NCBI GenBank assembly: GCA_902606745.1
Contig: CACLHR010000002.1
Location: forward strand, 1-64,000
Direction of reading: 5' to 3'
From: an uncultured Gammaproteobacteria bacterium
Lineage (GTDB): Bacteria; Pseudomonadota; Gammaproteobacteria; PS1; Pseudothioglobaceae
DNA: 64,000 bases
The notes under the pieces: model-generated
What the model saw: only the letters and a program-made list of their open reading frames with translations
Databases searched by the model: none
What the model was told of the DNA's origin: nothing
Position numbers and translations under genes: made by a program
In this document: positions 332-19,058 of the stretch, one piece after another
Layout: every line of letters starts with the position of its first letter
How positions within the stretch are numbered: position 1 is the stretch's first letter

Positions 332-1450
332 ATGATTATTGGAGTACCAAAAGAAATTAAAAACCACGAATACAGAGTTGGCTTAACACCAAGAAGTGTT
401 AAGGAACTTGTCAGAAACGGTCACAAAGTGATAGTCCAAACTAATGCTGGTAACGGAATTGGCGCAAGTGATAATGATTACAGTGAAAATGGTGCAGAAA
501 TTTTAGCGACTGCTGAAGAGATTTTTGCAACTTCAGAAATGATTGTCAAGGTTAAAGAACCTCAAGCAAATGAACGAGCTATGCTCAGAGAAGGTCAAAT
601 ACTTTATACCTATCTTCATCTTGCTCCAGACCCTGAACAGACAAAAGATTTAATTAAAAGTGGTGCTACATGCATTGCTTACGAGACGGTAACGTCTCCT
701 CGAGGTGGTTTACCGCTATTAGCACCAATGTCAAAAGTTGCTGGAAGAATGGCTGTTCAGGCAGGTGCACACTTTTTGGAACACCCTAATGGTGGCATGG
801 GAGCTTTACTTGGAGGTGTGCCTGGTGTTAACCCATTAAAAGTTGTAATTTTGGGTGGAGGTGTTGTAGGTGCACATGCCGCTCATATGGCAGTAGGAAT
901 GGGAGCTGATGTTTGGGTGCTTGACAATAATCCTGACACATTAGAAAAACATTGGCAACAATTTGGTCGTAGTACGAATACCGTTTTTTCAACTCAAAGT
1001 ACAGTTGAAAAATACGTACTAAATGCTGATTTAGTCATTGGGGGAGTTTTAATACCTGGTGCTGAAGCGCCAAAACTGGTTACAAAAGAGATGATTAAGG
1101 CAATGAAGCCTGGTTCAGTTGTTGTTGATGTGGCGATTGACCAAGGCGGTTGCTTTGAAACCTCAAAAGCAACAACGCATGCAGAGCCGACATATGTTGT
1201 GGATGATGTTGTTCATTATTGTGTAGCAAATATGCCAGGTGGTGTCCCTAAAACATCAACATTTGCGCTTAATAATGTAACTTTACCATTCGCAATTGCT
1301 ATTGCTAACAAAGGGGTTAAACAGGCATTACTTGACGATGAACACCTTAGAGCTGGTTTAAATGTCCATAAAGGCAAGGTAACATGTCTTGAAGTAGCCG
1401 AAGATTTAGGTTATGAATATGTTTCAGCGCTTGACGCGCTAAAAAATTAA
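332..1450 (+). CDS. ald: alanine dehydrogenase
   Basis: NAD-dependent oxidative deamination of L-alanine to pyruvate and ammonium. The 372-residue length is the family norm. The N-terminus [20 protein letters not shown] is the classic alanine dehydrogenase start. Expected active-site residues are in place: Arg15, Lys75 (in VKVKEP) and His96 (in YLHLAPDP). A Rossmann motif [14 protein letters not shown] lies near residue 171. The gene is 20 bp before xsc and follows the aminotransferase gene. This fits the taurine role of Ald, which recycles the alanine made by Tpa back to pyruvate and releases the nitrogen as ammonium. The next ATG-proximal sequence has only a weak ribosome binding site. Confidence 0.96.
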
Positions 1451-1470: not shown

Positions 1471-3243
1471 ATGTCGAAAATGACTGCAAGTGAAGCCTTT
1501 GTTGAAACAATGGTTTCAAATGGTGTTAAGGATATCTTTGGTATTATGGGTTCAGCATTCATGGATGCTATGGATATTTTTGAACCTGCAGGCATAAGAT
1601 TTATTCCAGTGGTTCATGAACAGGGTGCTGCCCATATGGCTGATGGCTATTCCAGAGTGAGTGGAAGGCATGGCGTTTGTATTGGTCAAAATGGTCCAGG
1701 TATATCGAACTGTGTGACTGCAATTGCTGCAGCTTATTGGGCCCATAGTCCGGTGGTAATTGTTACTCCTGAGGCTGGAACTGGCGGTATTGGTTTAGGA
1801 GGATTCCAAGAAACCAATCAGTTGCCAATGTTTCAAGAATTTACTAAATACCAAGGTCATGTCGTAAATCCAATGAGGATGGCTGAATTTACTGGTCGTT
1901 GTTTTGACAGAGCAATGAGTGAAATGGCGCCTACTCAACTCAACATACCAAGGGATTATTTTTATGCCGAAGGTGAATTTACAATCCCTCAACCTCGCAG
2001 AATTGATCGAGGTACGGGTGGCGAAGAGACTTTAAATGAAGCTGTAGCTTTAATCGCTAAAGCCAAATTTCCTGTAATTGTTTCTGGTGGTGGTGTAGTG
2101 ATGGCCGATGGTGTCCAAGAATGTATAGCATTAGCCGAGAGATTAGGCGCTCCAGTTGTGAATAGTTATCTCCATAATGACTCTTTTCCTGCAAGTCATG
2201 ACCTCTGGTGTGGACCATTAGGATATCAAGGTTCGAAAGCAGGCATGAAATTGATATCACAGGCAGATGTTGTCATTGCCCTAGGAACTCGCTTAGGACC
2301 GTTTGGAACATTACCTCAGTATGAAATGGATTATTGGCCAAAAGACGCCAAAATCATCCAAATAGATGCAGACCATAAAATGCTTGGACTAGTTAAATCA
2401 ATTACTGTAGGTATTTGTGGTGATGCTAAAGCTGTAGCTGAATCGCTTTGCGAAAAATTAGTTTCTGCAAAACTTTCTTGTGATTCTACAAAAGAAGAAA
2501 GAGCTGGAAAGATTGCCGATGAAAAAGCAGTTTGGGAGCTCGAGTTGGATGAGTGGATTCATGAAACTGACTCATATAGTATGGACATGATTGCTAATAA
2601 GGAAGAAGGTTGGCTTCACCCTAGGCAAGTTTTGCGTGAACTAGAAAAAGCAATGCCTGATGACGTTATGGTGTCAACAGATATTGGTAATATTAATTCT
2701 GTTGCAAATAGCTATCTTCGTTTTGAAAAACCTCGCAGCTTCTTTGCAGCGATGAGCTGGGGTAATTGTGGTTATGCCTTTCCAACAATAATCGGAGCAA
2801 AAGCTGCCGCACAAAATAGACCTGCTGTCTCTTATGCGGGTGACGGCGCTTGGGCAATGAGTATGGTTGAGACGATGACATGTGTTCGCCATGACATCCC
2901 TGTAACAGCAGTTGTGTTCCATAACCGTCATTGGGGTGCAGAAAAGAAGAACCAAGTAGACTTCTATGACAGACGCTTCGTTGCTGCGGAACTTACAGAT
3001 CAAGATTTTGTTAGTATTGCAAAGTCAATGGGTGCTGAAGGTATTCGTGTTAATAAACTTGAGGATGTAGGTCCAACACTAAAAAAAGCCATAGACATGC
3101 AAATGAATGAAAGAAAGACAACAATTATTGAAATTATGTGTACTCGTGAACTCGGTGACCCATTCAGAAAGGATGCATTGAGTAAGCCAGTCCGCCATTT
3201 GCCTAAATATAAAGACTACGGTAGCGATACGAAACATCGTTAA
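1471..3243 (+). CDS. xsc: sulfoacetaldehyde acetyltransferase
   Basis: Thiamine-diphosphate enzyme that converts sulfoacetaldehyde and phosphate to acetyl phosphate and sulfite, the desulfonation step shared by taurine, isethionate and sulfoacetate catabolism. The 590-residue protein shows Xsc-specific stretches such as FGIMGSAFMDAMDIFEPAGI and EAGTGGIGLGGFQETNQLP, the N-terminal pyrimidine-binding Glu in VVHEQGAAHMADGYSR, and the GDG...NR ThDP-binding motif near residues 457-487. A good Shine-Dalgarno (AGGAG) precedes the ATG. It is co-directional with ald, 20 bp away. Its products link to pta at 18 kb, and the sulfite needs an oxidation or export system not seen here. Paralogous ThDP enzymes such as acetolactate synthase lack these Xsc-specific segments. 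Confidence 0.97.
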   Translation: MSKMTASEAFVETMVSNGVKDIFGIMGSAFMDAMDIFEPAGIRFIPVVHEQGAAHMADGYSRVSGRHGVCIGQNGPGISNCVTAIAAAYWAHSPVVIVTPEAGTGGIGLGGFQETNQLPMFQEFTKYQGHVVNPMRMAEFTGRCFDRAMSEMAPTQLNIPRDYFYAEGEFTIPQPRRIDRGTGGEETLNEAVALIAKAKFPVIVSGGGVVMADGVQECIALAERLGAPVVNSYLHNDSFPASHDLWCGPLGYQGSKAGMKLISQADVVIALGTRLGPFGTLPQYEMDYWPKDAKIIQIDADHKMLGLVKSITVGICGDAKAVAESLCEKLVSAKLSCDSTKEERAGKIADEKAVWELELDEWIHETDSYSMDMIANKEEGWLHPRQVLRELEKAMPDDVMVSTDIGNINSVANSYLRFEKPRSFFAAMSWGNCGYAFPTIIGAKAAAQNRPAVSYAGDGAWAMSMVETMTCVRHDIPVTAVVFHNRHWGAEKKNQVDFYDRRFVAAELTDQDFVSIAKSMGAEGIRVNKLEDVGPTLKKAIDMQMNERKTTIIEIMCTRELGDPFRKDALSKPVRHLPKYKDYGSDTKHR

Positions 3244-4345: not shown

Positions 4346-6493
4346 CTATAATTTATCTAGACCTAAAAATTTCCGTCTGAAATGTGTCAATATCTCTTCA
4401 GTGTAACCATTTGGTTGATTCTTACCTTCAAAGGCAAGAGCCAATGACGCTTGGTAAGCAAAGCTGTCATAGCTGGGTGCAAGGTTTATGTAGTTTGGGT
4501 CATGTTTGTTTTGTTCATCAACAACCAGTGCCATATCCTGAAAAGCCTTGTGAACCTGTTCTTGTGAGCATATATTGTGATTAAGCCAATTCGCCATGTG
4601 CTGAGATGAAATTCGAAGAGTTGCTCGATCTTCCATAAGTCCAACATGATTAATATCCTGAACTTTAGAACAACCAATACCTTGGTTGATCCATTTAACT
4701 ACGTATCCTAAAATGCTCTGCGCATTATTATTAATTTCATTGACGACCTTTTCTTCGGATAAATTCTCTGGAGACTTAAGGAAAGGAATCATTAGAAGTT
4801 GGTCTTGGTTTGTTTCTAGTTTTTCTGAAAGTAGCTTTTTTTGTTGCTTAAAAACATCAAAACGGTGGTAGTGCGTTGCATGTAATGTTGCTGCTGTTGG
4901 AGAGGGCACCCAGGAACAGCTCGCTCCTGCCTCAAGATGTATCATCTTATTATCAAGCATTTCACGCATTTGGTCTGGTTGTGCCCACATACCTTTGCCT
5001 ATTTGAGCTTCATTGAAAAAACCGCACTCAAGGCCAGCATTCACATTATTAGCTTCGTAGGCAAAATACCAGTCTTCTTCTTTAATCAGGTTTTTACATC
5101 TCATTGCTCCAGCCATCATAGAGGTATGAATTTCATCTCCAGTACGATCTAAAAAACCTGTATTAATAAAAATAATTCGATTTCTTGCTTCATAAATGCA
5201 TGCTTTTAAATTAAGTGTTGTCCGTCTTTCTTCATCCATGACACCTATTTTTAAAGTATTCTCATCCAAATTAAGCGCCTTTTCAACTAAAGAAAATAGT
5301 TTCACTGTAAATGCAACTTCTTCTGGTCCATGAAGTTTGGGTTTGACAATGTAAAAGCTCCCCATCTTTGAGTTTGATTTACTTTTTAAGTCATGAAGAG
5401 CAATCAACGAGGTAACCATTGCATCCAAAATACCTTCAGGAGTTTTAGAGCCATCTGAATTTTTCACGAGGTCTGTCATCATGTGAAGACCAACATTACG
5501 AACTAAGGTCATGCTTGTCGCAGACAAGGTAAAGTTTTGACCCTCAGTGTTAGTGTATTGCTTATCTATATTCAATGAACGAGTCATTACCTCCCCACCT
5601 TTAGTGAATGAGGCATTTAGATTTCTCTTTATTAAGTCTAAATAGTTTTTATATGCATGAATCTTTTCAGAAAAAGCCACCGTTGAAACAGAGTCCTCGA
5701 AGTCAACAATGGTGGTAACAGCTGACTCTATAATGACGTCAAAAATACCACTTTTGTGAAAGCTTTTTTTCTGGTCTCCAATAATTTCAATATGAAGGTT
5801 GTTATTTTTAAGCAGTACATTTCCAGTATCAGTAAAACCTATAAATTGCTCAGGGTTGACTAAGGTAGCTACTTCTCCATCATTTAAATTAAAAATTAAT
5901 TCTTTTGTATACCTTACACGTGAATTTATTTGTCTGTAAGAGGCACCTTTAAGGGGTACGACCTCATCCAAGAAATCACAAGCTAATTCAGCTGTTCTGT
6001 TAACCCGTTGAAGGTTGTGAGCAAAAGATTTTGTCATACTACCTTTATTAGGTATGACATTGGTGCCATATAAAGAGTCAAATAGACTGCCCCAACGAGA
6101 GTTAACAGCATTCAGTACAAATCTTTGATTGGTTATTGGAACGACTAATTGAGGTCCTGCAATCTTGGCAATATCATCGTCCACTTTATCAACATTAATC
6201 GAAAATTTGGGAGGTTTAGGCACAATGTAGCCAATTTCCTTTAGAAAGTTTTTATAGGCAGTCGGATCAATATCATTATTTTTTATATGCCATTGATCAA
6301 TTTGAGCTTGAAGAGAGTCACGTTTTTTTAGAAGTTGAATATTTTCATCCTGCAAATCATTCAAAATATCAGAAAGAGATTGAAAGAAATTTTCAGCAGA
6401 AATATCTAAACCTTTACATACCTCATTTTCGATGAAATCAAATAGGTTTCGTTCAACAATCAGATTGCCAACGGTAAACTTTGTTTCACTCAT
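4346..6493 (-). CDS. glcB: malate synthase G
   Basis: Condenses glyoxylate with acetyl-CoA to give malate, the second step of the glyoxylate shunt. The 715 residues match the monomeric G isoform (about 720) rather than the shorter A isoform. Diagnostic segments are the catalytic Arg in MDEERRTTLNLKA, the DRTGDEIHTSMMAGAM substrate-site loop, the EAGASCSWVPSPTAATLHA stretch, and the catalytic Asp in VGLMEDRATLRISSQH. Its ATG overlaps the rraA stop by 4 bp, so it belongs to the aceA-aceK-rraA-glcB transcript and is translationally coupled. In this window its acetyl-CoA would come from Xsc plus Pta. Confidence 0.97.
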   Translation of the reverse strand: MSETKFTVGNLIVERNLFDFIENEVCKGLDISAENFFQSLSDILNDLQDENIQLLKKRDSLQAQIDQWHIKNNDIDPTAYKNFLKEIGYIVPKPPKFSINVDKVDDDIAKIAGPQLVVPITNQRFVLNAVNSRWGSLFDSLYGTNVIPNKGSMTKSFAHNLQRVNRTAELACDFLDEVVPLKGASYRQINSRVRYTKELIFNLNDGEVATLVNPEQFIGFTDTGNVLLKNNNLHIEIIGDQKKSFHKSGIFDVIIESAVTTIVDFEDSVSTVAFSEKIHAYKNYLDLIKRNLNASFTKGGEVMTRSLNIDKQYTNTEGQNFTLSATSMTLVRNVGLHMMTDLVKNSDGSKTPEGILDAMVTSLIALHDLKSKSNSKMGSFYIVKPKLHGPEEVAFTVKLFSLVEKALNLDENTLKIGVMDEERRTTLNLKACIYEARNRIIFINTGFLDRTGDEIHTSMMAGAMRCKNLIKEEDWYFAYEANNVNAGLECGFFNEAQIGKGMWAQPDQMREMLDNKMIHLEAGASCSWVPSPTAATLHATHYHRFDVFKQQKKLLSEKLETNQDQLLMIPFLKSPENLSEEKVVNEINNNAQSILGYVVKWINQGIGCSKVQDINHVGLMEDRATLRISSQHMANWLNHNICSQEQVHKAFQDMALVVDEQNKHDPNYINLAPSYDSFAYQASLALAFEGKNQPNGYTEEILTHFRRKFLGLDKL

Positions 6494-6972
6494 AAACTTG
6501 CCTTTTCTTTGATAACAATTACACCATCTTCGTCAGCATATAAATACTCACCTGGAGTGAAAGTAATTCCTGAAAAATTGACAATTAAGTTGCTGTCACC
6601 AACTCCATTTTTAATACTTTTAAGAGGACAAACTCCAAGTGCAAGAATACCAATCTTCATCCCTTTGATTGTTGCAGAGTCTCTAATCAATCCATGAACT
6701 AAAATACCTTCCCATTCATTTTTGATTGCATCAGTTGCTCTTTTATCCCCCAACATTGCACAATTCATTGAGCCACCTGCATCAACTACCAATATCGAGT
6801 TTTTACCATTAGATTTTAAAGCTTCCTCTACAAGTGAGTTATCTTCATGACATTTGACAGTAACAATACGGCCTGAAAATGAAGTTTTACCACCATAACT
6901 TTTATATACTGGCTCCAAATACTGCACATCAGGATGTAGCTGATCTGAGATATCACAGGTTGTTTCATTCAT
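6490..6972 (-). CDS. RraA family protein (RNase E regulator or aldolase/decarboxylase type)
   Basis: A 160-residue homologue of RraA, with TCDISDQL, GGKTSFSGRIVTVKCHEDNS, VVDAGGS and NEWEGILVHG all aligning to the E. coli protein, which inhibits RNase E. ATG 6972 is chosen because a GGAG lies 7 bp upstream; it overlaps the aceK end by 8 bp, and its own stop overlaps glcB by 4 bp. Unlike E. coli RraA as I recall it (GAVRQV), this copy has GLIRDS, restoring the Arg-Asp pair used by the related 4-hydroxy-4-methyl-2-oxoglutarate aldolases and oxaloacetate decarboxylases. Placement inside a glyoxylate operon makes a metabolic role such as oxaloacetate decarboxylation worth considering. Family is sure; exact function is not. 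Confidence 0.85.
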   Translation of the reverse strand: MNETTCDISDQLHPDVQYLEPVYKSYGGKTSFSGRIVTVKCHEDNSLVEEALKSNGKNSILVVDAGGSMNCAMLGDKRATDAIKNEWEGILVHGLIRDSATIKGMKIGILALGVCPLKSIKNGVGDSNLIVNFSGITFTPGEYLYADEDGVIVIKEKASL

Positions 6973-8770
6973 TGTTTGCTCCATAAATTTCACACATCCT
7001 TTTATCGGAACCATATGGATAATAATCCATCACACCCTTCTTTTTAATATTTTCTTGAATTGATCCCCAATATTCTGCATCTAGTAATTTTTGATAGCGA
7101 GCATTAAATGTATCTTTCATATACTTAGTTGGAAACATAAAATATTTAAATTCCTCAGGAAAAACATCATTTGGTCCAACGTAATACCATGGCTCTGATG
7201 ACATCTCTTCTTCATAAGTTCTTGATTTTGGTATCTTTTTAAAGACCGGCGTGCTCATTAAAGTGATTTCATCATAGTCATAGAAAACGACACGATCATG
7301 ACGGGTAACTCCGAAATTTTTTGTCAACATATCACCAGGAAAGATGTTTGAGTTAATCAACTGATCAATCGCTTTACCGTAGTCATTAATGATATGGGTT
7401 TGTTCCTTTTTATTGGCTGTTTCAAGATAGATGTTAAGTGGCGTCATCTTGTTTTCTATATACATATGCTTGACGATCAACAAATCATCCTCAAACTCTA
7501 AATTTGAAGCAGCTTTTTTCTTTAACTCATCAAGCAAAGAGTCATCAATATACTTCATTGGAAAGGCCACATTAGAAAACTCCCATGTATCTGCAAGTCT
7601 TCCAACTCGAATGTGATTTTTAACAAAATAATATTTCTCTTTAACCATTTCTTTTGTACCCATCTTTGGTGGCGCAAAATGGTCATTAATTACTTTAAAA
7701 ACATAAGGGTACATCGGGAAGGTGAAGACTGTCATCACCATACCTTTGATTCCGGGAGCTATTATTAGCTTCTCACTGGTAATTCTTGAATATTTTAAAA
7801 AGTGTCTATAGAGTAGAGTTTTGCCCTGTTTGTGAAGACCAATAGCGCTATAAAGAACCGCTCTTGTTTTTGCCGGCATGAGTACTTTTAAATAATCAAC
7901 TACGGCTGCGGGGTAATCAGTAGTAATGAAGAAGTATGACCTAGAGAAGCTAAATACAACTGAAATGCTTCCAGTATCAGTGAGCAAACTGTCAACATAA
8001 AGTCCACTCTTTTTATCGTTTAGTAGGGCGATTAAAAGTGGTTGGTCGGAGTATAGTTGGGAAATGATTTTGCCAACAATATATGCACCTTTACCTCTAA
8101 TAAAAGGGGTTTTTATTACTTGAATTTCGAAGGTTTGAGATTTTAATGGAGGTATTTGTTTGTAGAGCTGTTCTTGTAAGCGCTGGATATCTTGTTCGAG
8201 GTTGCCAAACTTGCAATTAAATGAAAAGCTTTTAAGGATTTGTGTAAGGGCATCTTTAATTTGCCCTTTTTCAATGAAGAAGCTTTCAACTACAGGTTCA
8301 TCCATGTCAATGTAACTAAGAGACACGCAGGGCTTGGTAAAAATATATTGATTGTTGTAAAAACTTCTAGCAAACATTCGACAAAACACTGAGTTGTAAA
8401 AGGTTTCAGCTAATTCTGGCTGTTTATGTTGTGTTATCAGTTCTATGTAGGCAAGTTTAGTGCTTTTCCAAAAATCAGAATTAAATTTATCTAAATGCGT
8501 TTGCTGATGCATTTCAGCTCTAGCGCCGTAAACGGTTTGTTTTTTTAGATTTAGATCTTTAGATAGTTTCTTGCAGAAGTTATTAACTTGCTTGTCATAG
8601 AAATTAAGTCTACGCTTTGAATCTTTTTCAATTTTTTCCCATTCCCTTTCTTCAAAGCACCTTTTTGCCTCTACCGAAGCTTTTTTAATGTTGCGATAAT
8701 GTTGCTCAAAGCCACCCAAAATCTGCTTAGCAATCGTAAGTGATAATGTATCTGAAAAATCATTAAACAT
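6965..8770 (-). CDS. aceK: isocitrate dehydrogenase kinase/phosphatase
   Basis: Bifunctional enzyme that phosphorylates and dephosphorylates isocitrate dehydrogenase, switching carbon between the TCA cycle and the glyoxylate shunt. The 601-residue length and segments such as YKQIPPLKSQTFEIQVIKTP, the ATP-site APGIKGMVMTVFTFP, and the catalytic core HDRVVFYDYDEITLM followed by EPWYYVGPNDVFPEEF are characteristic of AceK. It lies 71 bp after aceA and overlaps rraA by 8 bp, in the usual aceA-aceK order. Its presence implies that isocitrate dehydrogenase in this organism is regulated by phosphorylation during growth on C2 compounds. Confidence 0.96.
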   Translation of the reverse strand: MFNDFSDTLSLTIAKQILGGFEQHYRNIKKASVEAKRCFEEREWEKIEKDSKRRLNFYDKQVNNFCKKLSKDLNLKKQTVYGARAEMHQQTHLDKFNSDFWKSTKLAYIELITQHKQPELAETFYNSVFCRMFARSFYNNQYIFTKPCVSLSYIDMDEPVVESFFIEKGQIKDALTQILKSFSFNCKFGNLEQDIQRLQEQLYKQIPPLKSQTFEIQVIKTPFIRGKGAYIVGKIISQLYSDQPLLIALLNDKKSGLYVDSLLTDTGSISVVFSFSRSYFFITTDYPAAVVDYLKVLMPAKTRAVLYSAIGLHKQGKTLLYRHFLKYSRITSEKLIIAPGIKGMVMTVFTFPMYPYVFKVINDHFAPPKMGTKEMVKEKYYFVKNHIRVGRLADTWEFSNVAFPMKYIDDSLLDELKKKAASNLEFEDDLLIVKHMYIENKMTPLNIYLETANKKEQTHIINDYGKAIDQLINSNIFPGDMLTKNFGVTRHDRVVFYDYDEITLMSTPVFKKIPKSRTYEEEMSSEPWYYVGPNDVFPEEFKYFMFPTKYMKDTFNARYQKLLDAEYWGSIQENIKKKGVMDYYPYGSDKRMCEIYGANNE

Positions 8771-8841
8771 AAAGAATCAACCAACAAAATAAATTAAGCT
8801 TCATTTGGTGAAGCAAAGCATAATTGCTAGACAACCATTTC

Positions 8842-10149
8842 TTAGTTAAACTGTTCTTCTTCTGTGGAACCTGTCAATGCGGTCACCGATGACAGGCCGC
8901 CTTGAATTACCGTGGTAACATCATCGAAATAGCCAGCTCCAACTTCTTGCTGATGCGATGCAAAAGTGTAACCTTTTTTGGCCGCTTTAAACTCAGGTTC
9001 TTGCACTTTGTTTACGTAGTGCTTCATACCTTCACCTTTTGCATAGTCATAAGCCAAGTCAAACATGTTATACCACATATTATGAATACCCGCTAAAGTG
9101 ATAAACTGATACTTGTAACCCATTTCTGCGATCTTCTCTTGAAAAGAGGCAATCTCAGTATCGTTTAAATTTTTCTTCCAATTGAATGAAGGTGAGCAGT
9201 TGTAGGCCAATAATTGATTAGGATTTTCAGCTAGAACTGCTTCAGCGAACTCACGAGCAAAACCAAGGTCAGGTTTACCAGTTTCGCACCAAACCAAATC
9301 TGCATATGGTGCATAGGCTTCGCCACGAGAAATAGACTGTTCTAAACCATTTTTTACAACATAAAAACCTTCCGCAGTACGCTTGCCTGTTATAAATGAA
9401 GCGTCGTACGGATCTACATCCGATGTAAGTAGGTTTGCAGCTTCTGCATCAGTCCGAGCTAATAAGACGGTGGGCACTCCCATAACATCTGCTGCCAGTC
9501 GAGCAGAAATAAGCTTTTGAATTGCTTCTTGAGTAGGCACTAAAACTTTACCGCCCATGTGGCCACATTTTTTAACGGCGGCTAATTGATCTTCAAAATG
9601 GGCGCCTGCGGCTCCGTTAGAGATCATATTTTTCATCAATTCAAAAGAATTTAATACTCCACCAAAGCCTGCTTCAGCGTCAGCAACAATCGGCAAAAAG
9701 TAATCAACATGATCCTCGTCACCAGACTCAATGCCTTTTGCCCATTGAATTTCATCTGCTCTCTTAAAAGTATTATTGATTCGCCTTACCATGGTTGGAA
9801 CTGAGTCATATGCATACAATGATTGGTCTGGATACATTGTCTCGGAGGTATTTCCATCAGCTGCAACTTGCCAACCTGATAGGTAGATTGCCTCAATACC
9901 TGCTTTTGCTTGTTGCATCGCCTGGCCAGCTGTAATAGCTCCCATACAATTCACATATCCCTTTTTAGCGTTGCCATTTACTAAGTTCCAAAGCTTTTCT
10001 GCACCACGATGAGCATATGTACATTCGGGTTGAACTGAACCACGCAAGCGTACAACGTCTTCAGCATCATAAGTACGCTTAACATTAGCCCATCTAGGGT
10101 TATCTTGCCAATTTTTTTGTAGTGCCTCTATTTGTTCTTGTCTATTCAT
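8842..10149 (-). CDS. aceA: isocitrate lyase
   Basis: Splits isocitrate into glyoxylate and succinate, the first committed step of the glyoxylate shunt. The 435-residue protein carries the signature [18 protein letters not shown] with the catalytic Cys near residue 191, the substrate segment [12 protein letters not shown] near the N-terminus, and [12 protein letters not shown] near residue 318. A strong Shine-Dalgarno (GGAGAAG) precedes the ATG. It is the first gene of the minus-strand aceA-aceK-rraA-glcB set and is divergent from an IclR-type regulator, the same regulatory logic as E. coli aceBAK/IclR although gene content and order differ. Confidence 0.97.
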
Positions 10150-10338: not shown

Positions 10339-11028
10339 ATGATTCTAAGATCTCTAGATAAAAAATACAATGCCATTGAAAAATGCCTTCAAATTCTGTC
10401 TATATTTTCACTTGATAAGACACAATTCAGCATTAATGAAATTTGTGAAAAATTAGATTTTAATATATCTACCGCTTATCGCATCTTGTGCACACTTGAG
10501 AAATATGGATACGTCTCAAGATTAAAAAATAAAGATTATGTAGTTGGAACTCAGGCACTTTATTTGAGTGCTATTTACACTCAGAGTAATCACTTAGAAC
10601 AAATTCGTCCTATAGTTGATGAAATAAGAGATATATCCGGAGAAACAGCTTCATTCTTTGTAGAAGAGGATAGTATGCGAATTTGCCTATATAGAGCTCA
10701 TTCACGTGATGAAATCCGTCACAATATTGAACAAGGCAGTCGTTTGGAATTAAATCGTGGTGCTTCTGGAAGAATCATTCTCGCTTATGGTAAAAGAAAA
10801 AATGACAAAACTGGATTCTATAAGGAAATTAGAGAAGCTGGGTATTATCTTTCAATTCGTGAGCATAATAATTCTTTGTTTGCACTTGCAGTTCCAGTAA
10901 TATCTAGCAGTTCTAAATTTGTTGGTGCAATTGTAGTTTCTGGACCAATCAGTCGCTTTAACGAAAAACAAAAGATATTTTTATTAAAGCTTTTTAGATC
11001 TCAGTTGGCCAATATTGTTGTGCCATAA
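10339..11028 (+). CDS. IclR family transcriptional regulator
   Basis: A 229-residue regulator with an N-terminal winged helix (residues about 10-70, including FSINEICEKLDFNISTAYRILCTLEKYGYVSR... with the IclR pattern 'STAYRIL.TLE..GYV') and a C-terminal effector domain (RICLYRAHSRDEIRHNIEQG, then LNRGASGRIILAYG and a C-terminal FALAVPV...VGAIVVSGP). It is transcribed away from aceA, so the glyoxylate operon is its most likely target; in enterobacteria IclR represses aceBAK and senses glyoxylate and pyruvate. A role in sulfonate genes on either side is also possible. It ends 1 bp before the convergent gntR gene. Confidence 0.93.
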   Translation: MILRSLDKKYNAIEKCLQILSIFSLDKTQFSINEICEKLDFNISTAYRILCTLEKYGYVSRLKNKDYVVGTQALYLSAIYTQSNHLEQIRPIVDEIRDISGETASFFVEEDSMRICLYRAHSRDEIRHNIEQGSRLELNRGASGRIILAYGKRKNDKTGFYKEIREAGYYLSIREHNNSLFALAVPVISSSSKFVGAIVVSGPISRFNEKQKIFLLKLFRSQLANIVVP

Positions 11029-11029
11029 A

Positions 11030-11752
11030 TTAATAATCATTATTACCAATTGTAGTTCTATAACTGAACATGTCGGCTCTGCCGGTGGTTATACGAAACT
11101 CAACCAAGCCTTTATCCTTTGCATAAGAGTGTCGATTTAATATAACCACAGGATCTCCTTTATTTATGTGTAGAATTTTCGCCGTTTTGCTGTCAGCAAT
11201 ACCTGCAGTCAGTACTTCTTTTGATGTTGTGATTTGTGTTGCAAACTTTTTATAGATAAGGGCATAGAGTAGATCAGGTATATGTATATTAGGTTTTTGA
11301 AGGCCTTCTACAACCTCTGCAATCCACCAAGATTTTTCAATGATAATCGGATTTTTTTTATCTATATAACCTCTTCTTTCGAGAAAAATAACGTCCGCAC
11401 CACGATCTATTTCCAACTGAGAAGCTACCTCTGTAGTGGCAGTTGTTTTTTTTCGTATTGGAGTGGTTTTGTAGATTCTAATTGATGAACCTGTTTCACT
11501 GCCATAACTAAAGAAGTTAAACATACTATTGTCAAATCCATAATCAGAGACGTAGGTCCCTTTACCGTGGTGACGATACAAAAGATTGCTGTTTTCTAAT
11601 TGGTCTATTGCTTTTCTTACAGTTCCAACACTAACATTTAACAATTTGGATAGCTGTGTTTCAGAAGGAATCAAATCACCAATGGTGAGGTTACCACTAG
11701 TTATTTCTTCGTTTATATAGTCTATGACTTTATGGTAAAGCTTTTTATTCAT
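11030..11752 (-). CDS. GntR/HutC family regulator with UTRA domain
   Basis: A 240-residue protein with an N-terminal GntR winged helix (residues about 5-70; LIPSETQLSKLLNVSVGTVRKAI followed by GKGTYVSD) and a C-terminal UTRA ligand-binding domain (FLERRGYIDKKNPIIIEKSWW ... FRITTGRADMFSYR). Regulators of this subfamily normally repress an adjacent catabolic or uptake operon and release DNA on binding a small substrate-related ligand. It is divergent from tctABC-sauST, with two copies of one palindrome in the shared 290-bp region, so it is likely the local repressor of that operon and of itself. The ligand is not visible from sequence; sulfoacetate or a derived metabolite is the natural guess. 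Confidence 0.92.
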   Translation of the reverse strand: MNKKLYHKVIDYINEEITSGNLTIGDLIPSETQLSKLLNVSVGTVRKAIDQLENSNLLYRHHGKGTYVSDYGFDNSMFNFFSYGSETGSSIRIYKTTPIRKKTTATTEVASQLEIDRGADVIFLERRGYIDKKNPIIIEKSWWIAEVVEGLQKPNIHIPDLLYALIYKKFATQITTSKEVLTAGIADSKTAKILHINKGDPVVILNRHSYAKDKGLVEFRITTGRADMFSYRTTIGNNDY

Positions 11753-12042: not shown

Positions 12043-13545
12043 ATGGAATTTCTAGACTATTTTTCTAATGTTTTTACCTTTTATCATCTCGCGTTACTTA
12101 TAGGTGGAACATTTGCTGGAATCGTTCTAGGCGCTTTGCCTGGTTTGAGCCCCACTATGTCAGTTGCATTGTTAATACCTTTTACATTTCACATGAAGCC
12201 AGAGAGTGGTCTGATCTTACTTGGAGCCATGTATACAGCAACGGTTGCTGGCGGAGCTATAAGTGCAATATTGGTTAATGTGCCAGGGGCTCCGGCGAAT
12301 ATTGCAACAGCGATGGATGGTCATCAAATGGCTAAAAAAGGATTGTCTAGGGAGGCCCTACATTATTGCTTTATGAGTTCCTTTGTTGGAGGTATATTTG
12401 GAGTATTAATATTAATATTTTTTACCCCACCACTGGCGCGTTTGTCGTTGGAGTTTGGCACTACGGAGTTGTTTTGGATTGCCATTTTGGGAATTACCAT
12501 TATTGCGACGATAGATTCCAAGTCAGTTGTCAAAGGATTGTTGTCAGGTTTATTTGGTTTAATGCTAGCTACTATTGGAGACAACCCAGTTTTGGGTGTG
12601 GAGAGATTTGTATTTACTGACCATTTAGAAGGAGGTGTTAACATAGTTGTTGGCTTGATAGGCTTGTTTGCAATGCCTCAAGTGTTGAACTTAATGGAGA
12701 AGTACTATAGCGAAAAACACCCAGTTCTTTCAACAGAGGGTCGTTCCAGTTTGATGCAATCGTTTAGATATGTATTCGGTAAAGTTAAAGCTCTTTCAAT
12801 AGGATCATTTATAGGATCTCTTGTTGGAATCATTCCTGGAGCAGGGGGTCAAATAGCTGGATTAGTGGCTTACGATCAAACCAAAAAAGTAAGCAAAAAC
12901 CAGTCAAATTATGGAAAGGGTGAGCCTGAAGGAATTATTGCCGCAGAGAGTGCAAACAATTCAATGGTGGGGCCTTCTTTGATTCCATTGCTTACTCTAA
13001 GTATTCCAGGTAGTCCGACTGCTGCAGTACTGTTGGGAGGTTTATTGATTCATGGAATTTTTCCTGGCCATGAAATTTTTGTCTCAGAGAACACTGCACC
13101 GGTTGTTTGGACATTTATTGACTCTTTAATTCTTGCACAAATTTTCATGTTGATTATTGGCCTATTTTTGAGTCGACATAGTGGTTGGATTATGAAAGTG
13201 CCAGATAACTATATGGCGGTCGCTATTTTAGTTTTGGCAGTGTTTGGCACATACAGTATTGGCAACTCATACTCTGACGTCCTTATTATGGTGGTCTTGG
13301 GAACTATTATGTTTTTTGCCAGTAAGGCAGGTTTTAGCGCCGTGCCGGTTGTGTTAGGAATTATATTAGGCCCAATAGCTGAAAACAATTTCCTTCTCGG
13401 TAAGTTAATTGGAGGCGCTCGATATGGTGATGATTGGATGATATATTTTACAACGGGAACAATCAATGTAACCCTTATTGTTATTTGCATAGCATCCATT
13501 ACTTATGGCCTCTATTCAAATCGCAAATCAAAGAGAAGTACGTAA
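12043..13545 (+). CDS. tripartite tricarboxylate-type transporter, large membrane subunit TctA
   Basis: A 500-residue polytopic membrane protein with the TctA signature near the N-terminus (GTFAGIVLGALPGLSPTMSVAL), the second conserved glycine-rich loop GIIPGAGGQIAGLVAYDQ near residue 260, and LIPLLTLSIPGSPTAAVLLGGLLIHG near residue 310. With TctB and TctC it forms a binding-protein-dependent secondary transporter for carboxylates. The gene starts the plus-strand operon behind the GntR-controlled promoter. The downstream SauS-SauT fusion suggests sulfoacetate as substrate, replacing the SauU carrier known from Cupriavidus necator; that is inference from context. The start ATG has only a weak ribosome binding site. 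Confidence 0.93.
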   Translation: MEFLDYFSNVFTFYHLALLIGGTFAGIVLGALPGLSPTMSVALLIPFTFHMKPESGLILLGAMYTATVAGGAISAILVNVPGAPANIATAMDGHQMAKKGLSREALHYCFMSSFVGGIFGVLILIFFTPPLARLSLEFGTTELFWIAILGITIIATIDSKSVVKGLLSGLFGLMLATIGDNPVLGVERFVFTDHLEGGVNIVVGLIGLFAMPQVLNLMEKYYSEKHPVLSTEGRSSLMQSFRYVFGKVKALSIGSFIGSLVGIIPGAGGQIAGLVAYDQTKKVSKNQSNYGKGEPEGIIAAESANNSMVGPSLIPLLTLSIPGSPTAAVLLGGLLIHGIFPGHEIFVSENTAPVVWTFIDSLILAQIFMLIIGLFLSRHSGWIMKVPDNYMAVAILVLAVFGTYSIGNSYSDVLIMVVLGTIMFFASKAGFSAVPVVLGIILGPIAENNFLLGKLIGGARYGDDWMIYFTTGTINVTLIVICIASITYGLYSNRKSKRST

Positions 13546-13546
13546 T

Positions 13547-14002
13547 ATGAACCAGTATTTAAAAATTTCGACATTAATTGTAACTGCACTAGCTGCAGGA
13601 TTGCTATTTACCTCGTTTCAAGAGGTCTTCAATCCCAGTCCCTGGGGTGAAAATGAGGACTATCTATTCCCAAGATTTATAGCTGGTGGCATAGCATTCC
13701 TATCATTGCTTTTGTGGTTCGAGCGTGACGATAAAGGAAAATCAACTAATTTTATGGATTTGTTGCCAGGACTAGGCCTTATTCTTGCTTATATTATAAG
13801 TATGAATACTATCGGCTTTTACATGGCTTCAATGATTATGTTCTTCGCGGTAATAATGATCTATAAAAAACCCGAAGAAACCAAGGACTTTTGGCGAGTG
13901 TTACTTACAAAATTGAGTATCTCAGCAGTGTTTATTTTAATACTGTACAGTTTATTCACATTAATGTTAAAAGTACGTTTGCCAGGAGGGTTGTTTTTTT
14001 AA
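13547..14002 (+). CDS. tripartite tricarboxylate-type transporter, small membrane subunit TctB
   Basis: A 151-residue protein with four hydrophobic segments, the size and topology of TctB. It lies between tctA and tctC. ATG 13547 (MNQYLKIST) is chosen because it begins 1 bp after the tctA stop; an open-frame extension to 13505 would overlap tctA without benefit. TctB sequences diverge widely, so the assignment rests mainly on size, membrane topology and position. It would pair with TctA in the inner membrane. Confidence 0.88.
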   Translation: MNQYLKISTLIVTALAAGLLFTSFQEVFNPSPWGENEDYLFPRFIAGGIAFLSLLLWFERDDKGKSTNFMDLLPGLGLILAYIISMNTIGFYMASMIMFFAVIMIYKKPEETKDFWRVLLTKLSISAVFILILYSLFTLMLKVRLPGGLFF

Positions 14003-14030: not shown

Positions 14031-14990
14031 ATGAAACTTATGAAAATAACTAAAATTGCCTTGCTTGCAGCAACGTCACTGATGTTTATGCATGCTCAAG
14101 CCGATTACCCAGATAAACCAATCGGGGTTATGGTGGCTTACGGACCTGGTGGTGCAACAGATTTTCAGGCAAGAATTGCAACGTTAGCCTCTGGTAAAGA
14201 GGCCTTAATTGGTCAACCAATTTATATTCTTAACAAACCTGGTGCAGGTGGAAGAACTGGCTGGAACTGGTTTGCCAGCGAAGCCTCAAAAGACGGCTAT
14301 ATGCTTGCAGCATACAATGTGCCTCACTTTATAGCACAGTCAATTGTGTTTGATACTGCTTACAATATCAATACCCTTGAGCCGTTAGGTAACTGGGGTG
14401 CTGATCCAGCAGTGTTGATTGTTGGTAAAGACAGTCCTTTTAACACTGTAGCTGACTTGCTTTCGCATGCTGATGCTAATCCAGGCTCTGTAACTATTAG
14501 TGGTGCTGGTAAATTTGTGGGTCACCATATTGCATTCTTGCAGTTTGCCAAAGCTTCAGGTAAAGACTTGACTTATATCCCTGCAAAAGGTGGTGTTGAT
14601 GCATTGAGATTGGTTAAAGCTGGTGAAGTCAGTGCAGGTTTTAATAACTTGTCGGATTCAGCCAGAAGTGCTGCTGATCTTAAAATCTTAGCCGTTGCAG
14701 ACCTTACAAGACATGCTTATCTTCCAGATGTTCCTACACTGATGGAAAGCGGAGTCGATGTCGATGATTCAAGTGTCAATTTCCGTGGCTTGATGGTTCC
14801 AGCTGGAACTCCTCAAGACGTTATTGATTTCTTAGCAAGTAAGACTCCTGATATGTTTAACGATGGAAAGACTCAAGGCAAGATGAAGTCTACTAACTCA
14901 CCTGCAAGAGTGATGACAAGAGATGAAGTCATCGCAATGTGGAATGAAAGACAGGCTTACTTGACTGATCTACTAGCAGGTCTCCAATAA
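14031..14990 (+). CDS. tripartite tricarboxylate transporter substrate-binding protein TctC
   Basis: A 319-residue periplasmic binding protein of the Bug/TctC family. A Sec signal peptide covers about residues 1-24 (hydrophobic core IALLAATSLMFM, then HAQA before DYPDKPI). The mature start DYPDKPIGVMVAYGPGGATD is the family's first conserved loop; the second is NKPGAGGRTGWNW. The strong ribosome binding site (AAGGAG) fits the need for excess binding protein. It captures the substrate, likely a small carboxylate such as sulfoacetate given the adjacent genes, and delivers it to TctAB. The binding pocket cannot be read from sequence alone. Confidence 0.93.
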   Translation: MKLMKITKIALLAATSLMFMHAQADYPDKPIGVMVAYGPGGATDFQARIATLASGKEALIGQPIYILNKPGAGGRTGWNWFASEASKDGYMLAAYNVPHFIAQSIVFDTAYNINTLEPLGNWGADPAVLIVGKDSPFNTVADLLSHADANPGSVTISGAGKFVGHHIAFLQFAKASGKDLTYIPAKGGVDALRLVKAGEVSAGFNNLSDSARSAADLKILAVADLTRHAYLPDVPTLMESGVDVDDSSVNFRGLMVPAGTPQDVIDFLASKTPDMFNDGKTQGKMKSTNSPARVMTRDEVIAMWNERQAYLTDLLAGLQ

Positions 14991-15079: not shown

Positions 15080-17977
15080 ATGTCCAGTATCAAACAATTA
15101 ATAAAAAAAGCAAGGGACGCCCAGACAATAATAAATGGGTATTCACAGGAACAAGTCGACGAATTGATTCTTGCTGTCGCTTGGGAAGTAATCAAACCCG
15201 AAAACAATCAATCCTTATCCGAGCTTGCTGTTAAAACAACTGGTCTTGGCAATGTGGAGGATAAAAAGAGAAAAAATAAACGTAAAACTATTGGTTTATT
15301 AAGAGATTTAAATAATATAAAAACAGTCGGAATAATTAATCAAGATGTTGAAAAAGGACTTATTGAAATTGCAAGACCAGTCGGCGTTGTTGGTGCAATT
15401 GTTCCATCAACTAATCCGATTGCCACACCACTAAACAAAGTCATTAATGCCTTAAAATGTAGGAACGCGATTATATTGGCCCCTTCACCGAAAGGCGCTT
15501 TGGTTTGTACAAAGGTTGTAGGCTTGATACAGAAGGCTATTGAGCGTGTCGGTGCCCCAATCGACATTGTGCAGTCTCTATCTGAGCCTATAGATAAAAA
15601 CGATACCAATGAATTAACTAAGTTAGTAGATTTGGTTGTTGCTACAGGCTCTCAGAATAACATTAAAAGAGCCATTCAAAGTGGTACCCCGACCCTAGGT
15701 GTTGGTGTAGGAAATGTGCCCGCAATTATTGATTCTAGTGCTAATTTAAAGGATGCTGCTCATAAAATAAAAACCTCAAAAACATTTGACTATGCAACAA
15801 GCTGTTCATCTGAAAATAGTATCATCATTGTTGATAGCGTTTACGAAAAATTAATTAGGGCATTAGAGAAAGAGGGTGGCGCATTATTAAATGCAAAAGA
15901 AAAGAAAATCCTCGGCAAAAAGATGTGGAATGAAGATCTTATTATTAACCGCGATATCATAGCTAAAAGGGCTTCTAAAATTGCGAACCTCGTAGGCCTC
16001 GATACAAAAAAATATTCTAAAACTGAGTTTTTAATGGTGGAAGAGGATGGTATAGGAAAAAATTATCCATTCTCAAGAGAAAAACTCTCTCCTGTGTTGG
16101 CTGTTTACCGAGCTAGAGACTTTGATCATGCTGTTGATTTAGTAAACAAAATTTTACAAAATCAGGGGCAAGGACACTCTTGCAGTATTCATAGTAAAAA
16201 CGAAGACAATATTATAAGACTCGGTAATGAGTTAACGGTTTGTAGAGTCATTGTTAACCAAGCTCATTGTTTTGCTACTGGTGGAAATTTTGACAATGGT
16301 TTACCTTTTTCGCTCTCTATGGGCTGTGGAACTTGGGGTAACAATATCATTGATGAGAATCTCAACTACAAACACTACTTAAATATTACAAAAATTGTCA
16401 AAACAATCAAAACTAATGAACCATCAGAGGATGAAATCTTTTCGAGTTATTGGAAGAAATATCCCGCAACAAGCTCAACAATAAAAGTTCTTGTTGACAA
16501 GTATGCTGAAATTACTCCAGATAAAACATTCCTTATCGATGCTGACCTTAATTTGCACATATCTTATTCTCAGCTTAAAAAGGACATTGTTCTCTTGGGT
16601 CATTTCTTGAATCAAAACGGCATTCAATTTAAAGATAAAGTTGGTTTTTTGCTTGACAATAGCTACGCAACAGTTATGTTATTTTTAGGAGCAATGTATC
16701 ATGGTGTAACTATTGTCCCAATAAATATTCTTGCTGGCAATAATCAAATAGACTACACAATTAATCACTCTGAATGTAAATTACTTTTTACATCGAAAGT
16801 TTATTTAGATCAGTTTAAAAGTATTCTAAAGAGTTCAAAATCTAATGTTTTTGTATATGAAAAAGTTAAAGATTTGAATTGTTCTCGTGAAAATAATTTG
16901 AATTCACTAAATGAGGATTTAAGCTCTGATACTCCGGCTGTTTTGATTTATACATCTGGTACAACTGGCTTACCAAAGGGGGTTATGCTTTCCCATCAAA
17001 ATGTAATTGCAGGAGGCAGAAACACTGTTTTAGCACACGAAATTGCATCCAATGATGTGTCTTTATGTGTGCTACCACTTTATCATATTAATGCAGAAAT
17101 GGTTTCTATCTCTAGTGCCCTAGTGAGTAACACTTGTGTAGTAATTGTTAGTAAATTTAGCGTTTCTAATTTTTGGCAAACGCTTGCAAAATATCAATGC
17201 ACTTGGTTCAGTGTTGTGCCAACAATTATTAGTTATCTTTTGAATGATAATTTTGATGTCACTCAGCTCAACCTGAGTAGTATTCGTTTTGGTCGCTCTG
17301 CTTCGGCACCTCTTTCACCAGAAGTGCATAAAAAATTCGAGCAAGTATTTAAAGTAAATATTGTGGAAACGATGGGTCTCACTGAAACTGCTGCACAAAT
17401 TCTTTCAAATCCCTTAGACAACTATAAGCATGGTTCTGCAGGTATAGCTTATGGAAATGAAGTTAGAGTTGTTAATGATCAGGGTAATTTTGTTGAACCA
17501 GGTGAATCTGGTGAGTTGGTTATTAAAGGTGATAATGTTATGAAGCAATACTATAAAAATGAAGAGGCTACAAAGTCATCTTTTACTAAAGACGGATATT
17601 TTTTGACGGGAGACCTGGGAGTTGAAGATGAAGATGGCTTCTTTTTCATTACTGGAAGAAAAAAAGAGCTTATTATAAAAGGCGGCGAGAATATTTCTCC
17701 AAGAGAGATTGATGACACAATTTATAAACACAACTCTGTTTTAGAGGTGTGTACTTTTGGAATATTTGATGAAGACTATGGAGAAGAGATTTCAGCTTGT
17801 GTTTTTCTCAAAGATAATTTCAAAGCAAACGAGAAAGAATTAAAAGATTTATGTATAGCAGATTTGGGTGAATACAAAACTCCAAGCCAGATTATATTTG
17901 TTGATGAACCATTACCTAAAGGTCCTTCAGGAAAAATACAGAGGCTTAAAATAGCCGAACAGTTCAAACAGGCGTAA
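15080..17977 (+). CDS. fused CoA-acylating aldehyde dehydrogenase / AMP-forming acyl-CoA ligase (SauS-SauT type)
   Basis: A single 965-residue protein with two enzyme domains. Residues about 1-450 are a CoA-acylating aldehyde dehydrogenase: PVGVVGAIVPSTNPIATP, LGVGVGNVPAII, and the catalytic Cys242 in ATSCSSENS, a form typical of sulfoacetaldehyde dehydrogenase SauS and AdhE-like enzymes. Residues about 470-965 are an AMP-forming ligase: P-loop YTSGTTGLPKG (about 624-634), MGLTETA, FLTGDLG, and the C-terminal PKGPSGKIQR lysine loop. In C. necator, separate SauT activates sulfoacetate to sulfoacetyl-CoA and SauS reduces that to sulfoacetaldehyde. The tctABC and pta neighbours, and xsc nearby, support sulfoacetate as substrate. 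ATG 15080 is preferred to an upstream TTG. Another short carboxylate is possible. Confidence 0.88.
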   Translation: MSSIKQLIKKARDAQTIINGYSQEQVDELILAVAWEVIKPENNQSLSELAVKTTGLGNVEDKKRKNKRKTIGLLRDLNNIKTVGIINQDVEKGLIEIARPVGVVGAIVPSTNPIATPLNKVINALKCRNAIILAPSPKGALVCTKVVGLIQKAIERVGAPIDIVQSLSEPIDKNDTNELTKLVDLVVATGSQNNIKRAIQSGTPTLGVGVGNVPAIIDSSANLKDAAHKIKTSKTFDYATSCSSENSIIIVDSVYEKLIRALEKEGGALLNAKEKKILGKKMWNEDLIINRDIIAKRASKIANLVGLDTKKYSKTEFLMVEEDGIGKNYPFSREKLSPVLAVYRARDFDHAVDLVNKILQNQGQGHSCSIHSKNEDNIIRLGNELTVCRVIVNQAHCFATGGNFDNGLPFSLSMGCGTWGNNIIDENLNYKHYLNITKIVKTIKTNEPSEDEIFSSYWKKYPATSSTIKVLVDKYAEITPDKTFLIDADLNLHISYSQLKKDIVLLGHFLNQNGIQFKDKVGFLLDNSYATVMLFLGAMYHGVTIVPINILAGNNQIDYTINHSECKLLFTSKVYLDQFKSILKSSKSNVFVYEKVKDLNCSRENNLNSLNEDLSSDTPAVLIYTSGTTGLPKGVMLSHQNVIAGGRNTVLAHEIASNDVSLCVLPLYHINAEMVSISSALVSNTCVVIVSKFSVSNFWQTLAKYQCTWFSVVPTIISYLLNDNFDVTQLNLSSIRFGRSASAPLSPEVHKKFEQVFKVNIVETMGLTETAAQILSNPLDNYKHGSAGIAYGNEVRVVNDQGNFVEPGESGELVIKGDNVMKQYYKNEEATKSSFTKDGYFLTGDLGVEDEDGFFFITGRKKELIIKGGENISPREIDDTIYKHNSVLEVCTFGIFDEDYGEEISACVFLKDNFKANEKELKDLCIADLGEYKTPSQIIFVDEPLPKGPSGKIQRLKIAEQFKQA

Positions 17978-18065: not shown

Positions 18066-19058
18066 ATGGCATTACTAGAAAAGTTAACCAATAGAGCGCA
18101 GAAGATTTGTCCGCGAATCTTACTACCAGAATCGACTGATCTGCGCGTTATACAGGCAGCATTATCATTATCTACTGAAAAAATTGCAAAAATTGTTCTT
18201 CTTGGCAATGAGGATGAAATTTGTTCTCAATTAGAACAGTCAGGCGAAAGAAAAGGACATAACATAGAATTCATTGATCCAAAGGACAAAAAATTAAGAA
18301 ACGTTTATGCCAAAACTTTGTTTGAGAGACGCAAACATAAAGGTTTGGGGCTCAATGAGTCACTAGATTTAGTAAATGACCCTACTGTTTTTGCAATGTT
18401 GGCCTTACACAGAGATGAGGTAGATGGAGTTGTAACTGGTGCAATCACTCCTAGTCAAAAGGTCCTTGGTAATGCATTGAGAATTATTGGTGTTTCAAAT
18501 AACAACAAACTTGTATCGAGTTTTTTTTTGATGATGTTCGATCAAAATCATCAAAAATATGGGGAGAACATAATTTTTTCCGACTGTGCAATGAATATTG
18601 AACCCACTGTAGAAGAGTTAGCTGAAATAGCTCAAAGTGCCTTTAAATCTGCAAAAGATTTAGGCATTAAGCCGAAAATTGCAATGCTTTCTTTTTCCAC
18701 TAATAGAAACACTAAGCATTCTCAAGTTGAAAAAGTGAGACTAGCGACTAGTATCTGTAAGACTAAATTGCCAGATGTTGATATTGTTGGCAACATTCAA
18801 TTGGATGCAGCATTAGAAAGCAAGGTGTTACAAATAAAATATCCTGAAGTAACTTTTGTACCACCTGCCAATGTTCTTATCTTTCCAAACTTAGATGCTG
18901 CAAATATTGGTTATAAGCTTGTTCAACGATTTTCAGGTGCTAAAGCCTTTGGGCCAATACTTCAAGGGATGGCCAAGCCTGTAAATGATCTATCAAGAGG
19001 TTGTAGTGTTGAAGAGATATTTAACACTGTAGTTATTACTGCAAACCAGTGCAAGTAA
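18066..19058 (+). CDS. pta: phosphate acetyltransferase
   Basis: A 330-residue protein corresponding to the catalytic PTA_PTB domain alone, without the N-terminal regulatory half found in the long enterobacterial enzyme. Recognisable segments are RILLPESTDLRVIQAA at the N-terminus, VDGVVTGAITPSQKVLGNAL near residue 120, MLSFSTNRN near 216 (family MLSFST), and ANVLIFPNLDAANIGYKL near 275. It converts acetyl phosphate plus CoA to acetyl-CoA and phosphate. No acetate kinase gene lies beside it; its position 88 bp after the SauS-SauT fusion fits a role in collecting the acetyl phosphate released by Xsc. Confidence 0.95.
   Translation: MALLEKLTNRAQKICPRILLPESTDLRVIQAALSLSTEKIAKIVLLGNEDEICSQLEQSGERKGHNIEFIDPKDKKLRNVYAKTLFERRKHKGLGLNESLDLVNDPTVFAMLALHRDEVDGVVTGAITPSQKVLGNALRIIGVSNNNKLVSSFFLMMFDQNHQKYGENIIFSDCAMNIEPTVEELAEIAQSAFKSAKDLGIKPKIAMLSFSTNRNTKHSQVEKVRLATSICKTKLPDVDIVGNIQLDAALESKVLQIKYPEVTFVPPANVLIFPNLDAANIGYKLVQRFSGAKAFGPILQGMAKPVNDLSRGCSVEEIFNTVVITANQCK

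Follow-up and report, generated by a model that had tools for sequence, protein, structure and literature searches.

We describe a gene in which the two enzymes that would convert sulfoacetate to sulfoacetaldehyde are joined in a single chain. It lies in a 64,000-nucleotide stretch of DNA (here, the window) from a Thioglobus-like gammaproteobacterium, and its product combines an N-terminal CoA-acylating sulfoacetaldehyde dehydrogenase (SauS) with a C-terminal AMP-forming acyl-CoA ligase, the putative sulfoacetate-CoA ligase SauT (Table 1). Very probably the protein is a bifunctional enzyme of sulfoacetate catabolism. Sulfoacetate, a common sulfur compound, arises when taurine and sulfoquinovose are broken down. 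Both enzymes and the reactions they catalyse are already known; the new part is apparently the single-chain form, a domain fusion.

Table 1. The fused gene and neighbouring features in the window
Feature	Coordinates	Strand	Evidence
Fused sauS-sauT gene, 965 aa	15080..17977	+	intact open frame, ATG through stop
SauS half, residues 1-461, CoA-acylating sulfoacetaldehyde dehydrogenase, Cys242	15080..16462	+	NF047625, tree
SauT half, residues 462-965, AMP-forming acyl-CoA ligase, putative sulfoacetate-CoA ligase	16463..17974	+	Pfam, identity to neighbouring ligases, tree
TctA, large membrane subunit of tripartite tricarboxylate-type transporter, putative sulfoacetate importer	12043..13545	+	PF01970, 430 bits
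TctB, small membrane subunit	13505..14002	+	PF07331, 58.7 bits
TctC, periplasmic binding protein	14031..14990	+	PF03401
Phosphate acetyltransferase (Pta)	18066..19058	+	TIGR00651, 337 bits (cut-off 311)
Sulfoacetaldehyde acetyltransferase (Xsc)	1471..3243	+	TIGR03457, 1013 bits (cut-off 676.4)
Alanine dehydrogenase adjoining xsc	332..1450	+	TIGR00518, 517 bits (cut-off 391.85)
IclR-family regulator, candidate local regulator	10339..11028	+	Pfam IclR_C, HTH_IclR
GntR/UTRA regulator, divergent from tctA	11030..11752	-	domain match; synteny in relatives

An intact and recurrent fused frame

The initial annotation of this DNA had described one uninterrupted frame with a nucleophile at Cys242 and an AMP-forming ligase carrying the motif YTSGTTGLPKG, and all three elements stand. 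The frame is open throughout, and the same frame is free of internal stops in relatives. An open reading frame listing begins it further upstream, at TTG 15056; homologues favour the ATG at 15080. The motif TSCSSENS starts at residue 240, in agreement with the numbering of the predicted nucleophile Cys242, and the catalytic cysteine is kept in at least 93% of 58 aligned SauS sequences. Pfam domains cover residues 4-399 (Aldedh), 474-825 (AMP-binding, PF00501) and 876-952 (AMP-binding_C, PF13193); the ligase as a whole spans residues 465-964. Within the ligase half, the P-loop YTSGTTGLPKG begins at residue 624, GRKKELI lies at 859 and the C-terminal lysine motif PKGPSGK at 946, with a further motif at 766. 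Between close relatives, dN/dS is about 0.12-0.15 in each half, and purifying selection acts on both. An AlphaFold2 model of the fused protein, for which the alignment consisted of three close fused sequences, had a mean pLDDT of 28.8, too low to draw on for fold or domain geometry.

A search for the same fusion in other genomes, which the initial annotation had proposed as a check, found it in 12 genomes of two genera, window included. Eleven of these, from as many species, are among the 29 genomes covered for the Thioglobus-like genus, again counting the window; the other belongs to a sister genus of the same family (G1141), with 70% identity in one half and 67% in the other. Named close relatives are Candidatus Thioglobus sp. 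AH-558-A21 and Gamma proteobacterium SCGC AAA007-O20. The frame is cut in a twelfth genome of the genus (G016), where the matching record (L011) ends at the last base of its contig, consistent with a contig end; a thirteenth (G007) has the last 93 residues alone, at a contig start. A sequencing or assembly error would be enough to merge two closely spaced genes, but the chance that this explains the frame is negligible. The relatives carry it at 67-94% identity to the window, one of them (G006) in a single-contig assembly, and the junction residues are conserved. Because the full-length frame recurs across species and in two genera, we set aside chance and assembly error.

Outside the family, SauS was found above the model cut-off in 15 of the genomes sampled from the same class, in 5 of a phylum-wide sample and in 23 of 385 genomes of a second class. 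These samples overlap slightly and amount to about 1,100 proteobacterial genomes, among which no SauS was fused: every one was a separate frame of 465-640 residues. Eleven plasmid records matched both halves, and all the annotated ones show two genes. Plasmids of Rhodococcus and Azospirillum (L112, L113) pair SauS with a two-gene ADP-forming ligase of the SauCD type in place of SauT, with xsc or a tripartite tricarboxylate transporter (TTT) close by. At another locus (L095), the sauT that follows sauS is split across two frames, through either sequencing error or gene decay.

Origin of the fusion

Unfused relatives have sauT directly after sauS, an order seen in Caballeronia, Ruegeria, Paracoccus and Sulfitobacter, and the start of sauT commonly falls within the stop codon of sauS (a four-base ATGA overlap, frame +2). 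In three genomes the two genes share a frame and are separated by a stop and a few bases. This arrangement suggests how they came to be joined: one short indel or stop loss would suffice. The junction fits such a route. The end of SauS (...WKKY) meets the start of SauT after a few residues, almost without a linker in the genus, and the sister-genus fusion has about eight extra residues at this point. Most likely the fusion arose once, in the Thioglobus-like family, by the joining of adjacent or overlapping sauS and sauT genes, because in the tree of each half the fused proteins, all from the genus and none from its sister, fall into a single clade.

Identity of the two halves

The N-terminal half had been annotated as SauS, an assignment now upheld by a curated model and by phylogeny. 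NF047625, the NCBI curated equivalog for acylating sulfoacetaldehyde dehydrogenase SauS, scores 707.1 bits against a cut-off of 600 over residues 3-461, and models for AdhE and for acetylating acetaldehyde dehydrogenase fall far under their own cut-offs. In a tree of 83 sequences, the fused proteins form one clade (support 100/100) within the SauS clade and apart from AdhE-like and other acylating dehydrogenases; they sit in a subset of 38 sequences (100/97), the majority of them encoded beside an AMP-forming ligase. A separate family resembling acylating dehydrogenases (L065-L068 and L079, the last from G010, congeneric with the window) is 36-38% identical to the SauS half and under the SauS cut-off. 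Its genes directly adjoin a gene distantly like Xsc (27-29%).

The sequence data likewise favour the reading of the C-terminal half as SauT, in that it clusters with ligases linked to SauS and stands apart from other AMP-forming enzymes of this kind. It shares 36-51% identity with ligases whose genes immediately follow sauS in other bacteria; the best of the other ligases in sampled relatives reaches about 35% and 233 bits, far lower than those linked to sauS. In a tree of 47 sequences, the half nests within the sauS-linked ligases (fused clade 100/100), and the SauT set splits from ten other AMP-forming ligases at 99/99. NCBIfam matches to this half include no SauT model, and neither it nor the separate Caballeronia and Ruegeria ligases reach the cut-off of any NCBIfam ligase model. 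A Burkholderiaceae cluster (Caballeronia, L108), whose SauT is 38% identical to the ligase half, stood in as reference for the SauS and SauT of Cupriavidus necator. We infer the SauT identity of the half from its linkage to SauS.

One residue may bear on the choice of substrate. Arg739 is present in 37 of 37 SauT sequences and variable in other ligases, and it falls within an RSxSAxL-like stretch common to oxalate-CoA ligases, for which reason it might interact with the substrate's second negative charge. Oxalate-CoA ligase, whose substrate is a small dianionic C2 acid, is also the closest solved structure to the ligase half. This likeness could be taken to mean that the fused protein applies the same mechanism to another small acid, such as 3-sulfopropionate, oxalate or malonate. 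Analogous enzyme sets do use 3-sulfopropionate, and the related acylating dehydrogenase HpfX acts on another sulfonate, 3-sulfopropionaldehyde (PMC11489063). We nevertheless think a different acid unlikely, given that the SauS score exceeds its curated cut-off, that Xsc and Pta are encoded within the same 20 kb, that the operon layout matches sauST clusters elsewhere (PMC12625764), and that the malonyl-CoA synthase model scores 290.6, far below its cut-off of 558.

Gene neighbourhood and proposed pathway

The fusion sits in an apparent operon with tctABC and pta. TctC homologues (54-64% identity) adjoin many unfused sauST pairs, and pta lies immediately downstream of the fusion in 10 of 10 full-length relatives in the genus. 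With these genes together and a clear xsc about 12 kb away, the window encodes what is predicted to be a complete sulfoacetate route, comprising import, activation, reduction, desulfonation and entry as acetyl-CoA. Sulfoacetate would be taken up by the adjacent TctABC, a specificity read from gene context. The SauT half would then use ATP and CoA to form sulfoacetyl-AMP and sulfoacetyl-CoA, which the SauS half would reduce with NAD(P)H to sulfoacetaldehyde through a thioester at Cys242. Xsc would convert sulfoacetaldehyde and phosphate to acetyl phosphate and sulfite, and Pta would pass acetyl phosphate on to acetyl-CoA.

Xsc occurs in 11 of 12 genus genomes with a fused-type SauS match and also in 10 of 17 without a SauS match, and is therefore not specific to the sulfoacetate route. 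The alanine dehydrogenase beside xsc could play a role in a taurine route. Its position would suit an enzyme working in the opposite direction, in which sulfoacetaldehyde from a source such as taurine is oxidised to sulfoacetate for excretion, much as the CoA-acylating SqwD and an ADP-forming ligase do in fermenters (PMC11489063). Reversal is very improbable here: the ligase is AMP-forming, a reaction driven towards the thioester by its coupling to pyrophosphate cleavage, and the operon includes Pta and an importer that depends on a binding protein. The predicted direction is thus from sulfoacetate to sulfoacetaldehyde.

Between xsc and the operon, positions 4346-10149 hold genes for malate synthase G, an RraA-family protein, AceK and isocitrate lyase, a compact glyoxylate-shunt cluster; the isocitrate lyase and malate synthase G would allow growth on acetyl-CoA. 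The best candidate regulator is the GntR/UTRA protein, whose gene is kept beside the operon in relatives. Promoter-like sites showed no excess (31, against 32.4 expected from shuffles). Part of xsc matches a Rhodococcus plasmid at 87%, which at first suggested recent transfer. We rejected this after a wider search gave identities of about 80% in Burkholderia, Cupriavidus, Photobacterium and Rhodococcus, and thus a highly conserved Xsc group.

Comparison with known systems

Among the closest counterparts is the sulfoacetate pathway of C. necator H16 (Weinitschke et al. 2010, cited by PMC12625764), which has the same two activities that we propose here and the same order of sauS then sauT. There, however, SauS and SauT are separate proteins and the transporter is the single-gene MFS protein SauU rather than TctABC. 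Hybrid clusters in sponge symbiont MAGs, from other lineages, bring SauS and SauT together with a TctABC-type (TTT) transporter, as here, but as sauS and sauT genes; the available text of PMC12625764 mentions no fusion. Bilophila wadsworthia shares the SauS-type reduction of sulfoacetyl-CoA, whereas it relies on SauCD, an ADP-forming ligase of two subunits, instead of the AMP-forming type (Liu et al. 2023, cited by PMC12890257). AdhE also has an N-terminal CoA-acylating aldehyde dehydrogenase fused to an enzyme that catalyses an adjacent reaction, in that case an alcohol dehydrogenase and not a CoA ligase.

SauST as described consists of separate sauS and sauT genes, and the 12 genomes reported here have a single frame instead. 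The initial annotation knew of no described SauS-SauT fusion. In keeping with this, no single-chain form was found in the literature searched, a scope that left out the primary C. necator and Bilophila papers. That search also found no paper treating sulfoacetate and Thioglobus together and, with narrow terms, no other fusion of a CoA ligase to an acylating dehydrogenase.

Implications

A more tentative idea, which we hold to be possible and somewhat doubtful, is that the fusion, with almost no linker, holds the two active sites such that sulfoacetyl-CoA moves from ligase to dehydrogenase without release. If so, the protein would be a single-chain carboxylate reductase made of an AMP-forming ligase and an acylating aldehyde dehydrogenase, of which we found no described example. 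In any event, it offers a single expressible protein in which to test CoA-thioester channelling between two such enzymes. The ligase half could easily be mislabelled by automatic annotation, as it matches generic acyl-CoA ligase models alone and below their cut-offs; the frame of about 970 residues can serve as a metagenome marker for the Thioglobus-type sulfoacetate pathway. The fusion links a marine, sulfur-cycling lineage with small genomes to sulfoacetate.
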